Positions 7,413-35,739 of a stretch of 43,952 bases of DNA are shown here, piece by piece; position 1 is the stretch's first letter; every line of letters starts with the position of its first letter. This DNA is from Anaerolineales bacterium (GTDB lineage: Bacteria > Chloroflexota > Anaerolineae > Anaerolineales > UBA4823), in contig PQAL01000026.1 of assembly GCA_003105035.1 (NCBI GenBank), forward strand, positions 1 through 43,952, given 5' to 3'. The notes below the pieces were generated by a model. It was not told the origin of the DNA and searched no databases. It saw nothing but the letters and a program-made list of their open reading frames with translations. Made by a program: the position numbers and the translations under genes.

Positions 7413-8066
7413 TCAAATTGAGACTAGTTTATGTTTAATGGCGAATGCGATCGCCTCTGACCGGCTGGATACCTGCAGCTTGGAGAGGATGTTGCTGATG
7501 TGGGCTTTAACGGTCGCCAGGGTGATTACCAGCGCATCAGCGATCTGCTGGTTGCTGTAGCCTTTAACCACCAGCGCCAACACTTCATGCTCGCGCTCCG
7601 TTAGGTCGAAGTTGGCGTGCGGCGCAGGTCGAGTAGCCTGGACCAGCACCCGGGCGGCTTCAGGAGAAAGGGTCGACCTGCCTGAGGTTGCATCGCGGAT
7701 GGCCTTCGCCAGCTCATCTGAAGTGACATTTTTGATCAAATAGCTGATCGCCCCAGCGGCCAGAACGCCCTGTACCAGCTGCTCATCCTCGAAGCTGGTC
7801 ATGGCGATGATCTTGATCTCCGGGTGTTCTGCTAGGATCGCCTTTGTGGCTGCAATGCCGTCCATCTCCGGCATCATCAAGTCCATCAAGATCACGTCTG
7901 GAGTTTTGTGCTGGCAGGCCATGATCGCCTCCCGCCCATTACTTGCTTCAGCGACCAGCTCCAGGTCATCATAGGCGCGGAGAAAGGTAGCCAGGCCGCT
8001 GCGGACCACATTGTGGTCATCGACCAACATCACGCGGATGATATGTGTGTCACACAGGTCATTCAT
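7413..8066 (-). CDS. NarL/FixJ-family response regulator
   Basis: A 217-residue transcription factor. The receiver domain (residues 10-125) has the acidic pair D16-D17, phospho-acceptor D62 in the LMDLMMPEMDG motif, T90 and K112. A linker leads to a LuxR-type helix-turn-helix (residues 153-217), with LTEREHEVL and the recognition segment TLATVKAHI. The start overlaps the stop of the sensor kinase gene by 4 bp (8063-8066), making a coupled pair. The direct output is probably the downstream ASCH-like gene and exporters, since they follow on the same strand with no obvious terminator. Confidence 0.93.
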   Translation of the reverse strand: MNDLCDTHIIRVMLVDDHNVVRSGLATFLRAYDDLELVAEASNGREAIMACQHKTPDVILMDLMMPEMDGIAATKAILAEHPEIKIIAMTSFEDEQLVQGVLAAGAISYLIKNVTSDELAKAIRDATSGRSTLSPEAARVLVQATRPAPHANFDLTEREHEVLALVVKGYSNQQIADALVITLATVKAHISNILSKLQVSSRSEAIAFAIKHKLVSI

Positions 8067-10619: not shown

Positions 10620-10841
10620 TTATTCGTGATACTCCTGACCGACTTCCATGCTGCTAGCGGAAATGAGCTCCAGGCCCAAATCGCGCAGATGGGAGATAAT
10701 GCCATATAAAGCAGCTTGATCGGTTACAAAGCCAGTAAGAATGGTCTCATTACCATTGAGGTTCAGAATGGTTAAATTATCAAACCAGCCTGACCATTGC
10801 TGGTCAATTCTACCTTTTAGATGGATTTCTATTTGTTGCAT
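10620..10841 (-). CDS. Small conserved protein, DQAALHG-type (paralogue 1)
   Basis: A 73-residue protein starting at 10841, behind a GGAAAG site; a longer frame from 10862 lacks a ribosome-binding site. It reads as three strands and a helix: IEIHLKGRID, a W-S-G-W-F-D-N-L-T motif, a strand reading NETILTGFV, then T-D-Q-A-A-L-Y-G with a helix ending R-D-L-G-L-E-L-I-S. The same pattern occurs in the protein at 23037-23333. I know similar small proteins of unknown function from Chloroflexota and Actinobacteria, but no defined role. Both copies here lie downstream of a MalT-type regulator on the same strand, which suggests a partner or a target. Confidence 0.75.
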   Translation of the reverse strand: MQQIEIHLKGRIDQQWSGWFDNLTILNLNGNETILTGFVTDQAALYGIISHLRDLGLELISASSMEVGQEYHE

Positions 10842-13147: not shown

Positions 13148-13164
13148 AAAAGGTAGATTCAGGG

Positions 13165-13229: not shown

Positions 13230-15839
13230 TTACAATAGATTTAGCTGGCGGGCCTTTGCAACGGCCTGGGTGCGGCTGGTGCACCCCAGCTTCTCAATGA
13301 TATGATGAACATGCGATTTTGCCGTGCCAACACCGATCACCAAGCGCCTGGCGATCTGCATGTTTGACAGGCCATCCGCAAGCAGCCGCAGGATCTCCAG
13401 CTCACGCTCACTTAATGGCTCAACCAGTGGTTGTGCGCCTGGTGCAGATTTTTCCGGCCCAAATGCTGCCAGGATGGAACTGATACATGCTTTGAGATGC
13501 GGGGCTTGAGACCTCAACCGCTCCAGCATCAGCTTCAACGCTTCACCTTTATCTACGAAGGTACGGATAAATCCCTCCGGCTGGGCGTTTTCCAATGCCT
13601 CCCGGACGAATCGTAAGGAATCCTCCTGAGATTCAGCTGCCAAGGCCTGTAGCAGCTGAACCTCGATGAGCCCAGAGCGACAGTCTTTTTGTAAGGCAAC
13701 TTCATAAATCCCAGACAACCTTTTTGCTGCTTCTGCTTTTTCATCAAGGGCAAGGAGAATGCGAATTGGGGTCAGCCTAAAACAAGGAAAAAGAAAAGAA
13801 GAATCGGTAGGCGCAGTGACTCTTTCCGCCCAGTATTGCGCTGAGGGGAGATTTCCCTGTGCCAGGGCAATTTGAACATGGCAGGCTGCGATGCGGGTGC
13901 TGGCAAGAGCTGAAATATTGTGGCTATTCACCAGCTGGTCAGCTTTTTGTAGCGTGGCAAGAGCAGCCTGTGGCTGGCCATACGCTTGTTGAATGACCGC
14001 CAGGGTGCGGTAAGCATCATTCTGTAGCAGCGGGTTCCCCGTTTGCAAGCTTTGTTCAACCCCAACCTGAGCCTCGGTGAGGGCCTGGTCCAGTTGGTTC
14101 CACTCGTAGTACAGGGTGGCTAATTCGATGTGGGCAGACGAAACCGTCGGAGATGGCCCGCCAAGTTGAATGACCTTCTGGCACAGCTCCATGGCATGGT
14201 GAAGCCGCCCAAACACGGCCTGGATCATTGCCAGGTAAGTAAGGCCGATCATGCGGGCGTACTGGTTACCAGATTGCTGGGCAGCCCGGTCAACTTCCAG
14301 GAAGATTTGTTCGGATGCCCTGAAATTTCCATCATTCCAGTGCGCCAGGCCCAGGGTAAGCGCTGCCAGGCCCTTGGAAAGCGTATCCGCCTGGTCGAGG
14401 ATCGTTAATGCCCGTGTGGCATATTCAATTGCCCGCGGATTATCCCCCGAGACGCGCAAGTGGTAGGCCCTGGCGACTAAGATGGGACCCAAGAGCGCCT
14501 GGTCGTTACTGGCCAGCACCTCCGCCTGCTGTAAGTACGCGTTCGCAGCCTCCAGCTGCCCCGTGAGGGTCAATGCCCAGCCATAATTCTGACATAGACC
14601 AGGATACTGATAGATCACCTCGTCTGGAACGCGCTTCAGCCAGCCGATCAAGGTCATTAATTCGCCCTGCCCCAGCATAGATTCAACACAATCCTGTATG
14701 AGCATGGCTGACATTTCCCAATCTTTAGCTGATAAGGCATGCTGGATAGCTTCAGGCAGATAACCCTGTTGACCAAACCATTGGCTGGCGCTCCTGTGGA
14801 GCTCAATTTCAGAGATTGAGCTGGAAGCATGCAAACGCTGTTTTAGCAAATCAGCAAATAACAGGTGATAGCGATACCAGCTACGGGTTTGGTCTAACGG
14901 GACGATGAACAGGTTGGTGTGTTCCAGGTTTCCGAGCAGGTCCCCGCTGCCTGGCTGCCCTACTACAGCGTCACATAACGGGCCTGATAACCTGCTCAGG
15001 ATTGAGGTCTTCAACAGGAAGTCTTGAATATGGGATGGCTGCCGGGTGAATACCTCTTCGATCAGGTAGTCCAGCACATAATGGCTGCTGCCGGTGAATG
15101 CCCGGATGAATCCCGACAGGTCATCCTGACCCAGCATGGATAAGATCGCCAGCTGTAGACCAGCAATCCAACCCTCAGTACGTTGTTCCAGGGCTGAGAC
15201 GTCAGTTGATGACAGATTCAAGCCCATCACCCGATTGAGTAATGTAACACACTCATCCGGTGAAAAACGCAGGTCATTCTGACGCACCTCGACCATCTGA
15301 CCACGCGCCCGCAAGCGTGCCAGGGGCAACGGTGGGTCTTCACGCGTGATGATCACCAGATGCATAAGGGCAGGTTGGTGCTCTACCAAAAAACACAGCT
15401 GTTGATGGATGGGTAAGCTATTAATGACATGATAATCATCCAGCACCAGGATAAATGGCTGGTTGACAATGGAGATTTCGTTGATCAGGGATGTCAGAAC
15501 CACCTCAGCAGGTAGCGGCTGAGGAGATTGGAGCAGCGCAGCAGTGCTTTTTCCAAGGCGAGGATCAACCTGTTGCAAAGCAGCAATCAGATATGAAATG
15601 AACCGGACGGGATCATTATCGCCACCATCCAATGAAAACCAGGCTGCTTTGGCTGGTTGGCTGTGGATCCATTCAGCCACCAGTGTGGTTTTACCATAGC
15701 CTGCCGGCGCCGAGGCTAAAACCAAATTTTTGTTTTGTTGCCAGGCATCATCCAGGAGCTGATTCAGCGGATGTCGTTCAACCAGATTCTTACGCGTTAT
15801 GGGGATATTGAGTTTGGTCGCTAACAGGCTCGATGGCAT
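13230..15839 (-). CDS. MalT-type LuxR transcriptional regulator (LAL/STAND), copy 1
   Basis: An 869-residue protein. The ATG at 15839 is preferred (GTGAGG ribosome-binding site 5 bases before) over a TTG six codons upstream. Layout: STAND NTPase with Walker A APAGYGKTT at residues 44-52 and Walker B FILVLDDYH at 129-137; a winged-helix region with the R-T-E-G-W-I-A-G-L-Q motif; a long TPR-like helical sensor region (about 400-790); and a C-terminal LuxR helix-turn-helix with LSERELEIL and the helix VGTAKSHVHHII. Relatives such as E. coli MalT oligomerise on ATP and a ligand, then bind direct-repeat sites. The inducer is unknown. It is followed by its own terminator. Confidence 0.92.
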   Translation of the reverse strand: MPSSLLATKLNIPITRKNLVERHPLNQLLDDAWQQNKNLVLASAPAGYGKTTLVAEWIHSQPAKAAWFSLDGGDNDPVRFISYLIAALQQVDPRLGKSTAALLQSPQPLPAEVVLTSLINEISIVNQPFILVLDDYHVINSLPIHQQLCFLVEHQPALMHLVIITREDPPLPLARLRARGQMVEVRQNDLRFSPDECVTLLNRVMGLNLSSTDVSALEQRTEGWIAGLQLAILSMLGQDDLSGFIRAFTGSSHYVLDYLIEEVFTRQPSHIQDFLLKTSILSRLSGPLCDAVVGQPGSGDLLGNLEHTNLFIVPLDQTRSWYRYHLLFADLLKQRLHASSSISEIELHRSASQWFGQQGYLPEAIQHALSAKDWEMSAMLIQDCVESMLGQGELMTLIGWLKRVPDEVIYQYPGLCQNYGWALTLTGQLEAANAYLQQAEVLASNDQALLGPILVARAYHLRVSGDNPRAIEYATRALTILDQADTLSKGLAALTLGLAHWNDGNFRASEQIFLEVDRAAQQSGNQYARMIGLTYLAMIQAVFGRLHHAMELCQKVIQLGGPSPTVSSAHIELATLYYEWNQLDQALTEAQVGVEQSLQTGNPLLQNDAYRTLAVIQQAYGQPQAALATLQKADQLVNSHNISALASTRIAACHVQIALAQGNLPSAQYWAERVTAPTDSSFLFPCFRLTPIRILLALDEKAEAAKRLSGIYEVALQKDCRSGLIEVQLLQALAAESQEDSLRFVREALENAQPEGFIRTFVDKGEALKLMLERLRSQAPHLKACISSILAAFGPEKSAPGAQPLVEPLSERELEILRLLADGLSNMQIARRLVIGVGTAKSHVHHIIEKLGCTSRTQAVAKARQLNLL

Positions 15840-16048
15840 ATCAGCCTCACTTGTCAACCCTTGGGTAACCCCACAATTAGTGAATACCTTAGCTATAGTA
15901 TAGCAAAAATCTTAACGAATTTGTACTCCTCCCTGCACGATTGATAGTTGGCAATCAGGCCAACCATGTTAGCTTAACGGGTCTACTGCTGTTGAAATAT
16001 GAGTATGAAAATCAGCAGCCTGATGATAACTGCAAACGGTACCTTTGA

Positions 16049-16414
16049 TTATTGCTCCCCTTGTTTCTTTTCGATTTCTCGCTGTTCCTTCTGCCTCTTA
16101 ATGCGGTCTTTTTCCTGCTCTGTGTCCAACTCTTCTCGTGCCGCCCGTTGAGGTTCTCCCTGTTGGTTTTGCTCACGTTCCAGTCGCAACTGAACCTGCT
16201 GGCGTTGCTTACGTTCTGCTTCCTGCTGCTTTTCCAGCTGTAGACGTTCCTGCTGGCGTTTTTTCCGTTCTTCTTCCTGCTGTTGCTCTAACTGTTGGCG
16301 CTGTTGCTGGCGCTGCAATTGTTCTTCAGCTTGCTTTTTCTCGAGCTCACGCTCTTGGCGGTGTTTCAGGTCAAGCTGATCCTTATCGGATGATTTATCA
16401 TCAGGTGTCATCAT
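16049..16414 (-). CDS. Charged Gln/Glu/Arg-rich coiled-coil protein
   Basis: A 121-residue, low-complexity protein made almost wholly of Q, E, R, K and L, with near-heptad runs such as KKRQQERLQLEKQQEAERK. It should form one long helix or coiled coil. The start at 16414 (or the adjacent ATG at 16411) follows an AGAGGA site. There is no signal peptide or membrane segment. The internal DNA is repetitive (GCTGxx repeats on the + strand), so it may have grown by slippage. No homology can be argued because composition dominates. It might be a structural or adaptor protein, but the function is unknown. Confidence 0.55.
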   Translation of the reverse strand: MMTPDDKSSDKDQLDLKHRQERELEKKQAEEQLQRQQQRQQLEQQQEEERKKRQQERLQLEKQQEAERKQRQQVQLRLEREQNQQGEPQRAAREELDTEQEKDRIKRQKEQREIEKKQGEQ

Positions 16415-18849: not shown

Positions 18850-19473
18850 TTACCTATCAACCTCGATACGCTCCACAAGAACCTGCGAGCCATTGCAATC
18901 AGGTACATTGCTGAGAAGTGTGCCATAAAGATGCACGACCTTACCACTGTCGCGCAGTTCTACAATCTGGGATTCGATTACTGGATCTCTAGAATCGATG
19001 CCAAAATAAATGACCTGCCCCAGATCCTGCCGCTCGAAGCAATCATCATACTCCGCGCCTGGTGCGTTGCTCTTGATGACGCCCCACCAATCTGCTAACT
19101 CTTCAGTAGTACCGGGTGGCATGTAACCGCCCGAGGCATTTCCTCCTGAACCGCCACCACCTGCTTCTGTGGTTACCTCAAGGGTTGTAGTAGGTGTTGG
19201 TCTATTTTCCACTGCAGGACCGCACTCTCCTCGGTAATAGGCCCACTCGTCGCAGCTGCTGCCATCCGGAAAAATACATACTCCGCTTTGGCTACCATCG
19301 GCTGCCGTTTGAATCTCAAGTTCGTTGCCGTTTTGCTCGCAATAGACCGAAGCAGGATTCGGCATATTCACCTGAGGCATGTCCGTCGCTGTAGGTGCAG
19401 GTATCTGGACCTGCGGCGCCGTGCAGGCTGCCAGTGCTAACAAAATGATTGTGAATGAACAGATTCTTTTCAT
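18850..19473 (-). CDS. DUF333-containing lipoprotein
   Basis: A 207-residue lipoprotein: short signal peptide with lipobox L-A-A-C (Cys17), then a Pro/Thr linker. A DUF333 domain (about residues 40-85) has the conserved pattern NPASVYC, G-V-C-I-F-P-D-G-S-x-C and E-W-A-Y-Y-R-G-E-C, with its Cys pairs intact. A Gly/Ser-rich linker follows, then a C-terminal 90-residue domain (ELADWWGVIKS) that looks like a small beta-barrel. DUF333 is found in secreted and haemolysin-like lipoproteins of unknown function. The mosaic lipoprotein at 36234 carries two more copies. It is the last gene of the leftward set behind MalT-type regulator 2. Confidence 0.8.
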   Translation of the reverse strand: MKRICSFTIILLALAACTAPQVQIPAPTATDMPQVNMPNPASVYCEQNGNELEIQTAADGSQSGVCIFPDGSSCDEWAYYRGECGPAVENRPTPTTTLEVTTEAGGGGSGGNASGGYMPPGTTEELADWWGVIKSNAPGAEYDDCFERQDLGQVIYFGIDSRDPVIESQIVELRDSGKVVHLYGTLLSNVPDCNGSQVLVERIEVDR

Positions 19474-19521
19474 TTTTTCCTTCTTTCTGTTGTTTCAGGT
19501 TTGGTGTAACTTGTCTTTTAG

Positions 19522-20463
19522 CTAATGCTGCACACTGATGACGACATTTCCCTTTTTGTGTCCTTTTTCGACATACCTGTGCGCCTCAACCATCTGGTCC
19601 AACGGATAGAGTCTATCAATGACCGGTTTTATCTTTCCCGCTTCAATCAGCTCTTTGACAGAAATTAAATCTTCAATATATAACTTTGGTGTCCCCTCAT
19701 CGACTGATATGTATTTCCCGGCTGGGGTTAGCGCTTTTTTATACTGTAGTTTTGAGCTATATCTTTTTCCAACGGCATCAAAGATAAAATCATAAGATTC
19801 TCCTCTATTCGTAAAATCCTCTTTTGTGTAATCAATTACCTTATCGGCTCCCAGAGATTTCACGAATTCTAAATTTGTGGTACTGCATACCCCGGTAACT
19901 TCCGCCCCAAAGTACCTGGCAAGCTGTACCGCAAAAGTACCTACCCCTCCAGAAGCTCCATAGATGAGAACTTTTTGTCCTTTCAGGATATTTCCTTTCT
20001 TCTTGAGAAAATTCAATGCTAAAGTTCCTCGGGAAGGAACAGCAGCAGCTTCCTCATAGGTTACATTGGACGGTTTTAATGCCATAATACTGTCTTGTGG
20101 CATGCACACTCCGTCTTCTGGCAGACAAGCGTACTCGGCATAAGCACCAAAACGCTTGCCGGTAAGTGCAAAAATTTGGTCACCTTTTTTAAATCGTTTT
20201 ACATCTTTGCCTATTGCATAAATTTCTCCGGCTAACTCTAACCCTAGTACAGGTTTTCTTGGTCTTCTGAAACCAATAAATATGCGCATGGGGATCCATA
20301 GCAAGATATTTACTTTACCACTTCGAACTATACAGTCAGAAACTGTCACTGCTGCTGCATGAATTTTTATCAATACTTCATTGTCCTTGGGAGTAGGTTT
20401 TTCCACCTCTTTGAGCTGAAGAACCTCCGGCGGTCCGTATTTTGTGCATACAATTGCTTTCAT
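19522..20463 (-). CDS. NAD(P)-dependent quinone oxidoreductase-like enzyme (MDR superfamily)
   Basis: A 313-residue cytoplasmic enzyme. The start at 20463 follows a GGAAAGG site; the longer frame from 20514 overlaps the previous gene. The N-terminal GroES-like domain begins [15 protein letters not shown], and the Rossmann domain carries the NADPH-binding YGASGGVG motif at residues 168-175. The Cys/His ligands of catalytic zinc are absent, placing it with the zinc-free quinone oxidoreductase/enoyl-reductase branch, which reduces quinones or activated C=C bonds. It follows a set of membrane-protein genes and is probably co-transcribed. The AT-rich, Lys-rich coding differs somewhat from the upstream genes, which may indicate acquisition from a Firmicutes-like source. 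Confidence 0.88.
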
Positions 20464-20500
20464 TTTTGTACCTTTCCTTTTTACTTGATAGTACTCATTT

Positions 20501-21196
20501 TTATTTCTGACCATCAGCTAGGGTTGGTTTCTGATCCTTTACACCCTTAATCAAAAGCCACAAAGTTAGAGAGAGTTCCGCAATAAAACTAACCACCATA
20601 CATGGGTACGATATTACTTCGTAGCCCGGCAAAAGGAAACGCTGAAAAACATATATCAAAAGACCAAAACCATCGGCAATCAACAGTATGCCCAAGATCT
20701 TAGGAAGAAAGCCCGACTTGAAAACTAGATAACCAAGAGGAAAGAGCCAGAAACCATAGGGTATCTGGGCGACAATATATCCATTTTTGTATAAATAGAC
20801 AAATAATATCGCTAGCGCTTGTAGCTGATCTGGCTGGAATACTTTCAAATAGTCAGCTCCGCTCAAAAGCAACAGGCTGGCAAATAGATAAAGCATACCA
20901 AAACACCATATAGCAAACCCACCCAAGTTTAATAACAGGAACAGTAAAGCTATGTTTTTGTCCACCGGTTTTAATAACACGTACAAATACCAGGCCGCCA
21001 TAAGAAAAAACACAACTGAGAATAGACTGATTACAAATCCGATACGAAATAGCGATTCATGAGCCATTATGTGATTGACCGTTACTGGGGCATCCACGGA
21101 TACAAAGCGACCAAACTCATTTCCAATGATCGAAGTTACAATATACATGAAATAGAGGATACCTGCGATTCTTGCGGTCTTATTGATTGAATTCAT
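20501..21196 (-). CDS. DUF4386 family membrane protein
   Basis: A 231-residue protein with six or seven membrane segments. It starts with the family hallmark ([11 protein letters not shown]) and continues with F-R-I-G-F-V-I-S, both typical of DUF4386. The function of the family is unknown; its members often occur near regulators and in operons of small membrane proteins in Chloroflexota and Firmicutes. The start overlaps the upstream gene's stop by 4 bp (21193-21196). A second, diverged DUF4386 gene lies at 21748-22464. Confidence 0.85.
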
Positions 21197-21627
21197 TTTT
21201 TATCACCTTTAAATAGTGAATAGCCCGACAGGCCTATGCCTACCAGATATAGAACGCTCTGAAGGACATTCACTTGCCATCTCACATTTCCGACTTCTGC
21301 GGAAGCGATGAAGGCCATCACTTCCACGAAGCCGATCACGAACAGCAATACCCAGAAAGCCCATTTTTGGCTGGCGATCAGGCTTTTTCGGATGATCAAC
21401 CACACCAGCACCGAGAGACCCACCGAGCAAGAGTTGTACAGGATCGTCAGAGCATTGAGCGATGCAATGACCTTGGCATCCAGGCTGGCGATTTCAGATT
21501 TATCAAACACCATCACCAAAAGTGGAGAGTTTGCGTTGAAAATGACGACACTGGACAATATCGCGGCGGCAAGAAGAAAATTGATACCGCTCCAGATTGA
21601 GAGAACTATCGAACCTCTTTTTAGCAT
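21193..21627 (-). CDS. Small four-helix membrane protein
   Basis: A 144-residue protein with hydrophobic segments near 8-30, 48-78, 86-108 and 116-138. An AAGGAGA ribosome-binding site precedes the ATG. No family is recognised with certainty. The last segment runs into a Lys-rich tail, so the C-terminus should be cytoplasmic. It is coupled by a 4-bp overlap to the downstream DUF4386 gene, suggesting the two membrane proteins are made together. Confidence 0.75.
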   Translation of the reverse strand: MLKRGSIVLSIWSGINFLLAAAILSSVVIFNANSPLLVMVFDKSEIASLDAKVIASLNALTILYNSCSVGLSVLVWLIIRKSLIASQKWAFWVLLFVIGFVEVMAFIASAEVGNVRWQVNVLQSVLYLVGIGLSGYSLFKGDKK

Positions 21628-21703
21628 TTTGCTTTCTCCTTATGATGTGTGGTCTCCGCTATTTAAGGTCTATTCCACAAGCTTTATCATTGTGCGTAAC
21701 GGT

Positions 21704-21732
21704 GAGAGGGAGGGCTGAAGATCCTCCCTCTC
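21704..21732 (-). terminator. Intercistronic hairpin
   Basis: A 10-bp perfect stem (GAGAGGGAGG at 21704-21713 with 21723-21732) around a 9-base loop lies 15 bases after the stop of the DUF4386 gene at 21748. No T-run is present. It may partly terminate the transcript or protect upstream mRNA from decay. Confidence 0.5.
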
Positions 21733-21747
21733 CCCTATAGTGCAGAT

Positions 21748-22464
21748 CTATGCCACGCTCAACAGCTCGTTCGTTTCTGATTTCCCATACTTTGAAGCAA
21801 TTACAGACGGATTGAATCCCTTAACGATCAGCCAAACTGCCAGAACCATTTCCTGCAGAAAAATAGGAGCCGCCAGGGGAATGTAGCTGGTAATCCGGTT
21901 TCCGCTGAACAAGGCCAACACGCAAGCCACCATCATCAGGATGATCGCGACGATACCAAAGCCCGACAGCCATCGGGGAATGAGCCGTGATTGGAAGAAC
22001 AGGTAGTAGTACATAAATGCACCCAGGCAGAAGGCGAACACCGCCACCAGCGCGGCGTTGTCGCGTACGCTCACCAACAAATTGCCGATAGCCTGAAGCG
22101 ACGTACGATCGGCAGCTCCCGCTGTTGTGAACTGCTGGCCGAGTGTCAGCAAAGACTGCAGACTCACGAGGCCGACCACGTAAAAGGCTGTCTCAATTGT
22201 CCTGAAGACGACAGATCCGATGGCCAGACCCGCATTCCGCTCCTTCAAGACCGTATACATCACGACGGCTGTGCCAGCACATGCGAAGTACCCGATGAGC
22301 ATGAGCAGCACTCCTGCAGCCACCTGGTTCGTAGGCGCAGATAACGGAGTGAGGTTATCCGCACCAGTGAGGTCAGGTACGAGCGACGAGGCTAGCATGG
22401 GCGCGACAGTTGCAATGATGAAAATCACGCCTGTAAACACGGCAATCTTTCGAGTTGAATTCAT
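21748..22464 (-). CDS. DUF4386 family membrane protein (second copy)
   Basis: A 238-residue protein with about six membrane segments. It opens with S-T-R-K-I-A-V-F-T-G-V and contains a family-like region (VFRTIETAFYVVGLVSL) matching DUF4386. An AAGGAGA ribosome-binding site lies 6 bases before the ATG. It is only distantly similar to the copy at 20501-21196, so the two are old paralogues rather than a recent duplication. It is followed by a hairpin and then the next membrane-protein gene. Confidence 0.82.
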   Translation of the reverse strand: MNSTRKIAVFTGVIFIIATVAPMLASSLVPDLTGADNLTPLSAPTNQVAAGVLLMLIGYFACAGTAVVMYTVLKERNAGLAIGSVVFRTIETAFYVVGLVSLQSLLTLGQQFTTAGAADRTSLQAIGNLLVSVRDNAALVAVFAFCLGAFMYYYLFFQSRLIPRWLSGFGIVAIILMMVACVLALFSGNRITSYIPLAAPIFLQEMVLAVWLIVKGFNPSVIASKYGKSETNELLSVA

Positions 22465-22488
22465 TTTGTATCTCCTTTTTCACTGTGC

Positions 22489-22890
22489 TCAAATAGGTTC
22501 AACTACTGGTTTCCACTTCCAGGCAAACCAGATAATTAGCAACATACACGCCACTTCCACTGTTGCAAAAAACACATAATAAGGACCGTGTCCGCCAGTT
22601 ACAACACCAAAAATATTTATTGCAGCAATAATGCTGGTTACCCAGCGGATTATTTTATAGTTCAATACCCAGGACAGGATAACCATCGCAATCGCAGTTT
22701 CCATTATTATTGCGCCTAGCACCAAACCTCCCGAAGGCAATGGAGCTCCGCCCATTACTTCGCGGATCGCGGATGTGGGATCCATTAAAGAAAGAATATC
22801 CGCATAAGCCATATTGAGTAATACAAATATCCATAACAATGAAAGTTTTATTTTTGGATCTAATCCGGTGGTAGATTTGATTGTCTTCAT
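22489..22890 (-). CDS. DUF6326 family membrane protein
   Basis: A 133-residue protein with four membrane segments. The pattern L-S-x-L-W-I-F-V-L-L-N-M-A-Y-A-D-I-L near the start and the segment G-G-A-P-L-P-S-G-G-L-V are characteristic of DUF6326. The function is unknown. An AAGGAGA site precedes the ATG. The gene ends 24 bp before the following DUF4386 gene, consistent with one operon. Confidence 0.82.
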   Translation of the reverse strand: MKTIKSTTGLDPKIKLSLLWIFVLLNMAYADILSLMDPTSAIREVMGGAPLPSGGLVLGAIIMETAIAMVILSWVLNYKIIRWVTSIIAAINIFGVVTGGHGPYYVFFATVEVACMLLIIWFAWKWKPVVEPI

Positions 22891-23036
22891 TTATTTCTCC
22901 TTGTTTTTTAAAGATATGGATGGGTTCCATTAATTTGGACTTGAATAAAATTGTGGTCGTCACCCGGTTACCGGGGGTTGAAATAGGCTGGAAATGTTTT
23001 CAAAGGCAAACTCCTTTCCAATGCGCTACTATCCAT

Positions 23037-23333
23037 TTACGATTTGATGTCTGACCTATCAGCCTGGACTGTCTCGAGCGTTGTCGAGGGACCGTGTTCG
23101 AGAGGATTGACCGAAATTAACGGCAAACCTAAATCCCGCACTTTTTTCAGCAATCCATGCAACGCGGCTTGGTCAATTACCGGTCCAGTTAAAAGCGTAT
23201 CGCCATTGTCCTCGAGTGTGATGGTCAGGCCTTCAAACCAGGCGGCCCACTTGCCATCAAGGTGTCCCTTGAGGCGAATTTCATAAATACCAGGCCCGTA
23301 ATGATCTTTGGTTGATGCATGTGCCTTATACAT
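23037..23333 (-). CDS. Small conserved protein, DQAALHG-type (paralogue 2)
   Basis: A 98-residue protein. The start at 23333 follows an AAGAGG site; a frame reaching back to 23411 is Cys/Lys-rich and unconvincing. The core matches the protein at 10620-10841: IRLKGHLDG, W-A-A-W-F-E-G-L-T, D-T-L-L-T-G-P-V, D-Q-A-A-L-H-G and R-D-L-G-L-P-L-I-S. It adds a longer N-terminus and a 20-residue polar tail. It follows MalT-type regulator 2, and the repeats at 23415-23473 lie 82-140 bp before its start. The function is unknown; regulated co-occurrence with LAL proteins is the main clue. Confidence 0.82.
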   Translation of the reverse strand: MYKAHASTKDHYGPGIYEIRLKGHLDGKWAAWFEGLTITLEDNGDTLLTGPVIDQAALHGLLKKVRDLGLPLISVNPLEHGPSTTLETVQADRSDIKS

Positions 23334-23414
23334 TCTGCGCCTCTTGATTTTTTTATGTATGAATCTCCACTCATTGCATTCACTCTTATCTTCGCAAAAT
23401 ATATCAATCAATAT

Positions 23415-23473
23415 GGGGAGATGTATTCCCCATGTGTGGGGATTTATGTAGGGATGTATATGGGGATATGTGG
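23415..23473. repeat. 12-bp tandem direct repeats, MalT-box-like
   Basis: GGGGATTTATGT (23438-23449), AGGGATGTATAT (23450-23461) and GGGGATATGTGG (23462-23473) run head to tail with a 12-bp period. A fourth related unit, GGGGAGATGTAT, lies at 23415-23426; its first six bases together with 23427-23432 also form a 6-7-6 inverted repeat. The E. coli MalT box is GGGGA(T/G)GAGG, so the leading GGGGAT is similar. The array sits upstream of the small protein gene and just behind the gene for a MalT-type regulator. A regulator-binding role is inference. Confidence 0.5.
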
Positions 23474-23491
23474 GAGAGGATGCCAGGGAAT

Positions 23492-23541
23492 CAAAAGCCC
23501 TGCCAGGCCAGTATTAAAATGCTGGTTTATCTGGCAGGGCT
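23492..23541 (-). terminator. Rho-independent terminator of MalT-type regulator 2
   Basis: On the - strand an 11-bp perfect stem (AGCCCTGCCAG arms, 23531-23541 with 23496-23506) contains a second inner 4-bp stem and runs into TTTTGA (23492-23495). It starts 35 bases after the stop of the regulator at 23576, a good intrinsic terminator. Confidence 0.75.
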
Positions 23542-23575
23542 GTGTGAAGCCTGATGGGATAATGCTTTAGCGTGG

Positions 23576-26299
23576 CTAAATCAAATGCAGCTCTTCGGCT
23601 CGTTTAACTGCTTCTTGGCGATTATTGACGTTGAGTTTACTGTAGATACTCTTGGTATGCGTGCGGACAGTGCTCACGGCTATCACGAGTTCACGGGCAA
23701 TCTCCGGCCCGGAAAGTTCGCTTTTTAATAATCGGAGAACTTCAAGCTCGCGCCGGCTTATTGGCTCGATTAGGGGTTGCGAAGCGGGGGCCGTGGGAAG
23801 AGAAGATTTGCCCGCACTCATGAATTGCTCTTCTTCAAATGCTGACAGTAGCTTGTCTGTGTAGATTGGCATGATCTCACGCGCAGAAGCTTCACGAAGC
23901 AGTCGGAGCATGCTTGAGCCTTCGTCAAGGAACATACGGATGTAGCCCTCCGGCTCTGCCAACATCAGAGCCTGTTTCAGCGGCTCGAGAGCGGCAGGGA
24001 TGTCACTCTGCGCGGAATAAGCCATCGCCTGCAGTACCATGATTTCAATTACGCTTCCCTTCCCACCGCGTTCTTCTGCGGCTTTCAACAGGCGCTCCAA
24101 CAGTCCCAGTATCGCAGAAATGGTACAATCTTCACGGTCATTCAGGTAGCGGGTTAGGAGCATTCTTGCCAGGGTGATGTGATCGAATTCGTGTAGGTAG
24201 CTAAGATCGTCTTCGACAGACAGTCCCTGCTCGCGCGCCCAGTCCAAGGCTTCACCCAACCGACCTTGGGCCAGCCACACCCGTACCTTCCGCGTCGCAA
24301 TGGGACGTACATTCGGAGCAAAGGCACCATCGTATAGGCGCTCTGCCTGGCTGAGCAGGACGACTGCGTCGTCTAGATCGCCTTGGGCTACACGTATACG
24401 CGCCATCATTGCGCACCAGCGATACCGGTTTGGCGGTAGCCCACCAAGCTCACCAAGTGCCTCGCTTGTGAGTAGGAGCTTCATGGCGGCCTTTAGATCG
24501 TTATACTCGTACTGAAGGTTGCTCATACCCACGTACATATCTGCCGCTCCCCGCTGTACTGGCATGCCTGGCTCAGTTGCCCACTGCAACGCCTGCTTAT
24601 AGGTGTTCATGGCCTCGCGGAGTCGACCTTGCGCAATCTGGATATCCGCCAGGACTCTGGCAGCGCCGATGGAGGCAGAGATATACCCAGCCTGTCGCAC
24701 ATGGACCATGCCATCGGCAGTCATCCGGCGGGCAGTTTCGAGATCCCCGCTTGTCCATGCGGCAAGCCCAAGCTGCGAGGCTGCCCCACCCAACATCAGA
24801 TGGGCATCCGCAGGTGCGAGATCGAGCACCCTTCGGGCATTTTTCACAGCCTCAAGCATATCGCCCCGGACCAAAGCGTGCGCAGCACGGAGAAGGGCGA
24901 TCATACCCGGCAGACGTTGAAATTCCTCCTGGTCGACAACGACCATCCCCGCCGTGTCGGCTGCCGTGTCCATCCACCTTTCGGCGTCCCTCAATCGAGC
25001 CTCAACAGCCTCAAGCTCTCCGCCACCAAATAATGCATAAGCATAGTCAACGCAGAGCACCGGCCTGAAGTGGACCAGCTCGTCGGGTAGCGCCTTTAGC
25101 CAGCCAAGCTCCGTGACCGTGGCTCCCTGTCTATTCCTGCGCATTTCTGGCACTGCCAGTTCGACCAGGGTCGCCGCTCGCTCGAAATCCTTTGCCGCCA
25201 GCGCGTGGCGGATCGCATCGGCCGCCGAACCATTGTGCTCGTACCACTCGCTCGCCCGTTGGTGCAGGCTGAATACTTGATCCGGCTTCTCGTCTAGTAA
25301 ACGCGCTTGCAATACTTCAGCAAAGAGGGGATGATAGCGGTACCACTGGCGCTGGTCGTCGAGTGGAATGATAAACAGGTTGCCACGCTCGAGTGTTTCC
25401 AACATTCCTTTGCCGTCTTCTCGACCTGTAACGGCATCACACAGAGAACCGCATAGCCGATCGAGAATGGCGGTTTTCAGTAAGAAGCTGTGAATACCTT
25501 CTGGCTGGGCCCGGAAGACCTCCTCAACCAAATAATCCAGCACAAACCGATGGCTGCCGGTGAAGGCCTGGATAAAACTGGCAATGTCTGACCGCCCCTG
25601 CATGGAGAGCGCTGCCAGTTGCAGGCCGGCGATCCAGCCTTCGGTGCGAGTTTCCAGGGCGGCGATATCTTCTGCCGAGAGATTCAGCCCCATTACCCGG
25701 TTGAGAAATTCAGCAGCCTCTTCGGGGGTAAAACGCAAGTCGGCGGCGCGCAGCTCGGTCAGTTGGCCCCGGGCGCGCAGCCGGGCCAGGGGCAGCTGGG
25801 GATCCTCACGGGTGGCGATGACCAGGTGCATCTGGGGCGGCAGGTGCTCGAGCAGAAAGGCGAGGGCATTGTCAACCGGTTTGGAATCAATGATGTGATA
25901 GTCGTCAAGAACGAAGATGAAGTTGTCTGGGATGGTGGCGATTTCATTGAGCAGGGCCGTCAGAATCGCTTCGGTGGATGGTGGCTGAGGGGATTGGAGC
26001 GCAGCCAACGCCCCTGCTCCAATATTTGCCGCAATCGTCTGCAAAGCCGCGACGAGGTAAGTCAGAAAGCGTGTGGGATCGTTATCCCCTTCGTCCAGTG
26101 ATAGCCAGGCAACCGGTCGTGCGCAACCAGCAATCCATTCGCTTACTAGCGTGGTTTTTCCAAAACCGGCGGGAGCTGAGATGAGACTCAGCTTTTCATC
26201 TAATCCTAGATTAAGCCGTTGTATAAGGCGTGGGCGCGGGACAAGGTTTTTTCGGACAGGAGGAGTGAATAATTTTGTCGATAATAATTCAGGAGACAT
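23576..26299 (-). CDS. MalT-type LuxR transcriptional regulator (LAL/STAND), copy 2
   Basis: A 907-residue protein. The start is taken at ATG 26299; a TTG three codons upstream is also in frame, and neither has a strong ribosome-binding site. NTPase domain: Walker A SAPAGFGKTT at residues 41-50 and Walker B FIFVLDDYH at 127-135, then R-T-E-G-W-I-A-G-L-Q. A long TPR-like region (400-820) is followed by a LuxR helix-turn-helix (ISRRELEVL, VSTVRTHTKSIY). The N-terminal 350 residues are clearly paralogous to copy 1, while the TPR region is much less similar, suggesting different inducers. It heads the leftward set down to 18850 but ends in its own terminator. Confidence 0.92.
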   Translation of the reverse strand: MSPELLSTKLFTPPVRKNLVPRPRLIQRLNLGLDEKLSLISAPAGFGKTTLVSEWIAGCARPVAWLSLDEGDNDPTRFLTYLVAALQTIAANIGAGALAALQSPQPPSTEAILTALLNEIATIPDNFIFVLDDYHIIDSKPVDNALAFLLEHLPPQMHLVIATREDPQLPLARLRARGQLTELRAADLRFTPEEAAEFLNRVMGLNLSAEDIAALETRTEGWIAGLQLAALSMQGRSDIASFIQAFTGSHRFVLDYLVEEVFRAQPEGIHSFLLKTAILDRLCGSLCDAVTGREDGKGMLETLERGNLFIIPLDDQRQWYRYHPLFAEVLQARLLDEKPDQVFSLHQRASEWYEHNGSAADAIRHALAAKDFERAATLVELAVPEMRRNRQGATVTELGWLKALPDELVHFRPVLCVDYAYALFGGGELEAVEARLRDAERWMDTAADTAGMVVVDQEEFQRLPGMIALLRAAHALVRGDMLEAVKNARRVLDLAPADAHLMLGGAASQLGLAAWTSGDLETARRMTADGMVHVRQAGYISASIGAARVLADIQIAQGRLREAMNTYKQALQWATEPGMPVQRGAADMYVGMSNLQYEYNDLKAAMKLLLTSEALGELGGLPPNRYRWCAMMARIRVAQGDLDDAVVLLSQAERLYDGAFAPNVRPIATRKVRVWLAQGRLGEALDWAREQGLSVEDDLSYLHEFDHITLARMLLTRYLNDREDCTISAILGLLERLLKAAEERGGKGSVIEIMVLQAMAYSAQSDIPAALEPLKQALMLAEPEGYIRMFLDEGSSMLRLLREASAREIMPIYTDKLLSAFEEEQFMSAGKSSLPTAPASQPLIEPISRRELEVLRLLKSELSGPEIARELVIAVSTVRTHTKSIYSKLNVNNRQEAVKRAEELHLI

Positions 26300-26652
26300 A
26301 CCGCTCAATTATAGCAACGAACTAATCTACTTAATCAACAAGTCTCAGGCAATTGTCCAGTAAAATTCTTATTTGCTTATCATCGACAGGGGAATCTGAT
26401 TGAAAATAAGGGTATTTATGCCATGCAATTGGGATTTTTATATATATTCCACCTGCTTAGAAACTATTCAGACTAAAAGAATATGTTACTAGAACCGTTC
26501 ATTTTTATTACTATAGCAAGAGAAAAATACGGCTGTTCTGGATAACCAATTTTATGGAAATTACTCATACCATGAATCTGATGGGACGCAAACCCTCGCC
26601 CTCTACTATATCTAAAAAGATCAATGCATAAACGTGGGTAATCAAATCGACC

Positions 26653-35052: not shown

Positions 35053-35739
35053 ATGAAAGTACTACTTGCGGATGACCACCGCCTGCTCCTGGAAGGCTTA
35101 CAGAATCTGCTGACGGCGCATGGGATCGAGGTAGTGGGCCTGGCTTATGATGGCAATGAAGCGGTCAGCTTGGCGCGCCAGCTAAAGCCCGACGTGGTCC
35201 TGATGGACATCCGCATGCCGCTCTGTGATGGTCTGTGTGCCACGAAACAGATCTGCGCCGAGATGCCTGAGATTAAGATCATTATCCTGACCACCTCAAC
35301 CGAGGAGCAGGATCTGTTCGAGGCAATAAAAAGTGGCGCATGCGGTTACCTGTTAAAGAACATGGATGCTGATGAGCTGGTAGAATGCCTTAACCAGGCG
35401 CAGCAGGGTTTGCCACCCTTCTCGCCCGGCTTGGCGAATAAGATTCTCAGCGAATTTACCCGCCTCGGGGCGGATAAGATCGCCGCAGAAGACGCGCTTA
35501 AGGCACAATCCGAAGTTGACCTGACGCCCCGGCAGCGCCAGGTCCTATCCCTGCTGGCCCAGGGATACTCCTACAAGGAAGCTGGCCAAAAATTGGGATT
35601 GAGCCCACGCACGATCAAATATCACATGTCTGAGATCATTGAGCGCCTGCACCTGGAAAACCGGTCGCAGGTGTTGGCTGCTGCCGGGCGGCTGGGCCTC
35701 AATGGAACGGGCCCCGACCGCGAAAACCAACCCCTGTAG
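35053..35739 (+). CDS. NarL/FixJ-family response regulator
   Basis: A 228-residue regulator. Receiver: acidic pair D7-D8, phospho-acceptor D52 in LMDIRMPLCDG, T80 and K102. The linker (110-155) is longer than usual. The LuxR helix-turn-helix (156-216) has LTPRQRQVL and the recognition helix SPRTIKYHMSEI. GAGG lies 6 bases before the ATG. It is paired with the 7TM kinase and followed by a weak terminator, then by a degenerate receiver and a large lipoprotein that are plausible targets. Confidence 0.93.
   Translation: MKVLLADDHRLLLEGLQNLLTAHGIEVVGLAYDGNEAVSLARQLKPDVVLMDIRMPLCDGLCATKQICAEMPEIKIIILTTSTEEQDLFEAIKSGACGYLLKNMDADELVECLNQAQQGLPPFSPGLANKILSEFTRLGADKIAAEDALKAQSEVDLTPRQRQVLSLLAQGYSYKEAGQKLGLSPRTIKYHMSEIIERLHLENRSQVLAAAGRLGLNGTGPDRENQPL

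Follow-up and report, generated by a model that had tools for sequence, protein, structure and literature searches.

The element analyzed here has its closest described counterpart, in palindrome and spacing, in the operator of MalT in Actinoplanes sp. SE50/110, a MalT-like LuxR-family activator (PMC7567727). In the available text of that report, the MalT palindrome TCATCC-5nt-GGATGA overlaps the -35, with 34.4 ± 1.0 nt separating its 3´ end from the start site, and the MalT boxes of E. coli and Klebsiella are given as GGGGA(T/G)GAGG (PMC7567727). The promoter of the LAL activator TpdR in Rhodococcus jostii TMP1 carries direct and inverted repeats, according to the part of its report at hand (PMC6099782). 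For MalT bound to ATP and maltotriose, the accessible text describes open ring-like oligomers in which DNA contacts the outer layer (PMC10427625). Our literature searches, which covered open-licence papers, found no operator of a Chloroflexota LAL and no exchange of HTH and operator in the LAL family.

The locus studied here lies in a 43,952-nt stretch of DNA, referred to in its whole as the window, which is contig C26 of a 4.45-Mb genome that is 97% complete. On the minus strand, a LAL/MalT-type regulator gene (23576-26308, start codon uncertain) is followed by an intrinsic terminator hairpin (23496-23541, minus strand; -25 kcal/mol, z = -5.15), a repeat array and a small gene of 98 aa (23037-23333), the first gene of a predicted operon, with an ATG at 23333 preceded by AAGAGG. 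The earlier note had placed the repeat between the gene for a MalT-type LAL and the small gene that follows it; this location is borne out, and the place is conserved in relatives. Same-strand genes further downstream (18850-22890, minus strand) may form the remainder of the controlled operon, assuming co-transcription, and encode a DUF6326 protein, two DUF4386 proteins, a 144-aa protein, a quinone-oxidoreductase-like protein and a small lipoprotein (by eye). The regulator has the build of a LAL/STAND protein, with an N-terminal NTPase part that scores below cut-offs (AAA_16 28.6 bits, NACHT 21.9) and, above cut-off, MalT-like TPRs (TPR_MalT, residues 468-809) and a C-terminal LuxR-type HTH (GerE, residues 849-903; 23600-23764, minus strand) with the recognition helix STVRTHTKSIYSKL. 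The small protein matched no Pfam family (limit 0.001) or NCBIfam family (limit 0.01), and its best match in the PDB was an AHAS regulatory subunit at E = 0.024, with none at ≤0.001. An AlphaFold model (mean pLDDT 76, pTM 0.61) goes with a predicted β-α-β-β-α-β fold, to be read as a fold class only.

The array occupies 23415-23466, and the 12-bp repeat described in the earlier note is real: on the plus strand, GGGGAT at 23438, AGGGAT at 23450 and GGGGAT at 23462 follow one another at steps of 12 and 12 bp, and Tandem Repeats Finder reports 23437-23467 with a period of 12, 2.6 copies and a score of 41. In dinucleotide shuffles of the 242-bp stretch 23334-23575, three or more RGGGA units on either strand chained at 11-13 bp arose in 1 of 20,000, and six or more RGGGA/TCCCY units in 18 of 20,000; given the rarity of the three-unit chain, chance is a poor explanation of the repeat. 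A fourth unit had been proposed at 23415, and it is present there, though it reads GGGGAG, so it is not a further GGGGAT; it lies 23 bp from 23438. Nor is the array purely a direct repeat: the direct units are joined by an inverted one, TCCCC at 23427-23431, which gives a direct-direct-inverted-direct order. Along the direction of transcription, from 23466 onward (TCCCCATATACATCCCTACATAAATCCCCACA followed by CATGGGGAATACATCTCCCCATATTGATTGATATATT), two direct half-sites come first, D2 (GGGGA, 23462-23466, plus strand; TCCCC on the coding minus strand) and D1 (AGGGA, 23450-23454, plus strand). They are followed by two palindrome arms, the outer arm L (GGGGA, 23438-23442, plus strand) and the inverted half-site I (23427-23431, minus strand; TCCCC on the plus strand), which pair as TCCCC-N6-GGGGA (23427-23442) centred between 23434 and 23435. 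One more direct half-site, T (23415-23419, plus strand), lies between the -35 and -10 positions, and last comes a predicted -10, TATATT (23398-23403, minus strand), whose first base stands at a distance of 31 nt from the centre of the palindrome. A sigma-70 scan of 22850-23700 found no full promoter and no good -35. The inverted unit, the LAL terminator hairpin and the -10 had been overlooked earlier, when four of the five units were seen.

An Actinoplanes-type operator would have its palindrome over the -35, with arms 5-6 nt apart that end about 34-36 nt before the start site. The window has inverted arms and a -10 at a spacing close to the one described in the available text, relative to a start site that is predicted only, whereas its letters differ and its palindrome is accompanied by D1, D2 and T, tandem direct half-sites of a kind not described in that text for Actinoplanes MalT. 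With the E. coli and Klebsiella MalT boxes, as given there, the window shares the GGGGA(T) core, direct repeats, a LAL/STAND regulator and overlap with the -35 region; it departs from them in its inverted unit, in its gene content and in a regulator whose score does not reach the cut-off of the MalT model. Of the 10 positions of GGGGA(T/G)GAGG, each of the five units matches 6-7, and in no unit is the GAGG end present. The description as MalT-box-like therefore holds for the core and the kind of protein; lacking the GAGG half, the array is not an actual MalT box. The TpdR promoter resembles the window in combining direct and inverted repeats under a LAL activator, whereas its direct repeats, in the text at hand, are 15 bp long, of other sequence (TnnAAnnGCGGAnTC) and differently spaced.

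Relatives of the small protein were found at E ≤1e-6 in 36 of 61 related genomes, and a scan of a species-genome collection gave at least 79 distinct loci among the matches listed, mostly in Chloroflexota, with some in Actinomycetota, Paenibacillus and others. As flanks we took the sequences 3´ of LuxR-type HTH genes on the listed relative loci and in the window, scanned 320 nt of each with leave-one-out profiles scored against shuffles, and counted z ≥5 as a match. The 96-flank scan left out L001 (the window itself), L012 (a copy of L067), flanks shorter than 120 nt and all minus-strand matches except that of the window; L008 was not used at any stage. With two profiles, the direct-direct-inverted-direct layout was detected behind 75 of the 96 regulator-gene ends of the window and its relatives, 39 of superclass AB (ATC-type) and 36 of superclass CD (A(C/T)AC-type), a count in which the close relatives L097, L103 and L111 each figure and L098, its left arm out of register, barely passes the z limit. 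The remaining 21 flanks gave no such operator with these profiles. By reading, an AB- or CD-type helix is encoded by 77 of the 96 genes; L028 and L095 have no operator in the scanned 320 nt and a similar element further downstream, and the other 19 genes carry other helices, among them the window's other LAL and two short non-LAL genes of the window (7413-8066, minus strand, and 35053-35739, plus strand). Scored for this layout by self-similarity, free of any profile, 44 of 137 flanks scored higher than each of 30 shuffles of themselves, the window reaching 17 of 18 against an own-shuffle maximum of 14.

The layout is tied to a -10, as TAnnnT starts exactly 31 nt past the centre of the palindrome in 39/39 AB and 28/36 CD operators, a spacing that is partly built in, the finding profile reaching into the hexamer. 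Should the -10 begin at -12, this distance would put the palindrome centre near -43.5. In most cases the LAL is followed directly by the small gene; in 11 clear cases a different gene takes that place, and the operator precedes it by 71-135 bp (L052, L057, L060, L071, L072, L079, L091, L093, L098, L101 and L112). The picker of the next ORF was crude and skipped the small gene's own start at some loci, so only clear cases were used. Conservation appeared only when geometry was followed, and the GGGGAT letters were rejected as the conserved feature: since relatives keep the geometry and most do not keep the letters, the check proposed in the earlier note, conservation of GGGGAT in relatives, would fail in most of them despite a conserved element.

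What varies between relatives is the half-site letters, which read ATCCCC in the window and ATCACC, ATCAAC, ATCATC, AACAC or AATAC elsewhere, the half-sites of one operator mostly being of the same class. The superclass of the operator equals that of the recognition helix in 75/75 cases (73/73 in the tree set). Among AB-type helices, STVRTHT(K/E)(S/G), which includes the window's, goes with TCCCC in the right arm in 8/8 and in the left arm in 6/8; N-first helices with K or R at position 8 have TCAC as right arm in 21/22 cases, all but L064, and as left arm in 18/22 (L097, L098, L103 and L111 are out of register). THTNN helices have ATCAAC in the left arm (6/6) and THTQN helices TCATC (3/3). 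In superclass CD, D-T-x-KG helices have ACAC in both arms (14/14) and N-T-x-KG helices ACAC in the left and ATAC in the right (3/3); the 19 S-first helices have ATAC in both arms in ten cases, ATAC in the left with an altered right arm in five, and other arrangements in four (L015, L063, L067 and L102). Letters thus change with the helix by superclass, and in the finer classes with exceptions. L099, for instance, combines KS with an N as first helix residue and has an operator of the ATCACC type, so KS alone does not give TCCCC and S..KS is not to be read residue by residue. The helix-to-box code suggested by these pairings is strong but not absolute.

A fixed half-site layout tied to a -10, with letters that match the helix, argues that the LAL reads the array. 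Very probably, the array serves the small-gene operon as operator and activator-dependent promoter and is bound by the LAL encoded just upstream; we take it to be the LAL's own operator, with a probable role in activation. The link to the regulator suggested in the earlier note is thereby supported, by sequence comparison with relatives. After its signal, the LAL may take the ATP form and oligomerize as MalT does. One pair of heads would occupy the palindrome, whose centre is near -43.5, others would dock, presumably by cooperative loading, on the upstream tandem half-sites and the half-site in the promoter spacer, and RNA polymerase would be recruited to a promoter that lacks a good -35. With 10.5 bp to a turn, the 12-bp step amounts to 1.14 helical turns. 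Neighbouring units are thus not strictly on the same face of the DNA, and the earlier idea of loading on one face is ill-matched to this pitch; such a pitch, with a single unit flipped, would instead suit DNA that gently winds round a curved oligomer. The same LAL could use the same site for repression, which half-site T within the promoter spacer would suit, yet we regard this as unlikely, since the promoter has no good -35 and the closest described palindrome and spacing, those in the available account of Actinoplanes MalT, serve an activator (PMC7567727).

Agreement between helix and box was also assayed on trees of 73 LAL bodies minus their last 75 residues (L009 and L049, with no body sequence, were left out). 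On the body tree, the HTH superclass changes 12 times and the operator superclass also 12 times. Independent supported superclass contrasts agreed in 9/9 cases on the careful tree (p = 0.004) and in 10/10 on the quick tree (p = 0.002). Asp versus Ser/Asn in the helix was paired with C versus T in the right half-site: of seven contrasts on the careful tree, six agreed, none opposed and one showed no difference (p = 0.031), and the five contrasts on the quick tree were not significant. The finer ATC-type traits gave three contrasts each, all or nearly all concordant and too few for a test. As judged from these comparisons, box class follows the recognition helix and not the rest of the regulator, and heads have moved between sensor bodies; such domain exchange accounts for the many superclass changes on the body tree. 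The window LAL and L017 (genome G047, one contig) are 56-90% identical in body bins and 40-43% over the last 90 residues. Conversely, the window LAL and L038 are 86-90% identical over the last 60 residues versus 20-66% further in, and the body of L038 is 81% identical to that of L051, whose head is CD-type. At the DNA level, the window and L038 are 74% identical at the body end, 89% in the HTH, 87% in the intergenic region and 82% in the small gene; as this contrast is weaker, we claim sharp borders for window/L017 and L038/L051 only.

The last three of these DNA identities would also fit a purely passive process, in which the HTH end, terminator and operator recombine as a block of ~400 bp and the repeat serves another regulator. 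HTH and operator adjoin, so block transfer explains part of the concordance, and in-genome orthogonality of box classes is unsupported, with 5 of 35 same-class pairs among co-resident LALs versus 6.4 expected (p = 0.36). (Identical helices occur in 0/116 co-resident pairs, a figure with no control for comparison.) We nonetheless find such hitchhiking quite improbable, given that within one superclass a change of one helix residue goes with a change of a half-site base on the body tree, that the half-sites of one operator mostly share their class letters, and that operators are found away from LAL genes.

Linkage alone does not explain the pattern, since operators are also present at a distance from any regulator gene. 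A pattern search of 61 genomes found class-B operators at nine places in seven genomes, with a LAL-type HTH in the 3-kb locus at 5/9 and none at 4/9: G046 (short contig), G015:533130, G012:383935 and G035:370772. The last three genomes have a class-B-type LAL elsewhere (L141, L161 and L170 in G015, G012 and G035); the extra operators of G015 and G012 are only ~4-5 kb from the LAL-adjacent operator, and that of G035 is ~280 kb from L170. The operator of L095 lies 1.5 kb from its LAL. In G040, 10 places are within three mismatches of a class-A-like operator, with none in the reversed control. One is beside a LAL with the helix STVRTFVKSVYGKL, in which the S..KS residues of the window's helix recur; the nine other 3-kb loci are without a LAL HTH, and three have three mismatches and are weak. 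The genes behind these operators encode, among others, an ABC-type ATPase, membrane proteins (by eye), a second relative of the small protein (by eye) and a lipoprotein. Over its first 70 residues, the lipoprotein shows 39% identity to the protein encoded by window gene 18850-19473. The dispersed class-A-like operators of G040 (L207, L209-L211 and L214-L219) are probably a regulon acting in trans. Reversed-pattern controls gave no match in any of the seven genome pattern searches; a strict class-D pattern had two matches in the 61 genomes and misses many class-D operators. The class-A pattern occurs once in the window's 4.45-Mb genome at ≤3 mismatches, so the window LAL seems dedicated to its neighbour operon; at ≤1 mismatch, the pattern occurs in 2/61 genomes. 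The three-unit direct-repeat pattern has one match elsewhere in the window's genome.

The inverted pair could also be thought to form an RNA hairpin, a terminator or attenuator, as TCCCCATGTGTGGGGA is flagged as terminator-like on the plus strand. We hold this to be very improbable: in the ORF list no convincing plus-strand gene ends there, the predicted transcript begins downstream of the inverted pair, the direct half-sites switch class together with the pair, and 23496-23541 holds a separate strong terminator. It is scarcely credible that the units are genuine MalT boxes controlling a maltose regulon, for although the core is GGGGAT and the NCBIfam MalT model (NF003420) aligns over nearly the whole LAL (residues 8-907), the score of 471 bits is below the cut-off of 537, the units lack the GAGG half, and the scan of the downstream genes recognised none for maltose.

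Beyond LAL activation of the small-gene operon, we lean towards the broader reading that LALs of Chloroflexota and some other phyla are plug-in modules, with a head-terminator-operator cassette set under varied sensors and a code matching helix to box. The cassette would comprise a head of about the last 65 residues, would often include the first target gene and would have been placed repeatedly under different bodies. The code would pair Asp with AACAC, Ser with AATAC, S..KS with ATCCCC, KN with ATCACC, NN with ATCAAC and QN with ATCATC, and could be tested by a few point changes. The candidate operators cover many uncharacterised LAL (STAND) regulators, so that sequence by itself would suffice to list their target genes. 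The swapping of DNA-reading heads among sensors in nature is what synthetic biologists try to build, and the 12-bp pitch with one flipped unit offers a concrete DNA geometry for asking how MalT-type oligomers hold promoters.

Several further features of the window were noted. Within 320 bp upstream of the listed start of the LAL gene there is one lone TCCCC, so autoregulation of the LAL is not supported. The window's other LAL (gene 13230-15857, helix GTAKSHVHHIIEKL) has a possible operator of its own at 13149-13150 with TCTACC/TCTATC units, whose score of 14 was reached by 2/30 shuffles; CCTATC units are present in L104 and G010:L196, which have GTAKWH helices. Just below 7413, TAATACTTTGGTATAAGGATGTAACTCCTTTAGTATAAG contains two palindrome-like repeats behind the short LuxR-type HTH gene 7413-8066 (minus strand). 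A 54-bp tandem repeat at 16195-16316 (2.3 copies, 75% matches) lies within open frames of both strands. A second relative of the small protein, with 50% identity, is at 10635-10832 on the minus strand, and at E 0.001 matches to the small protein were found at seven places in the window's genome, its own gene included.
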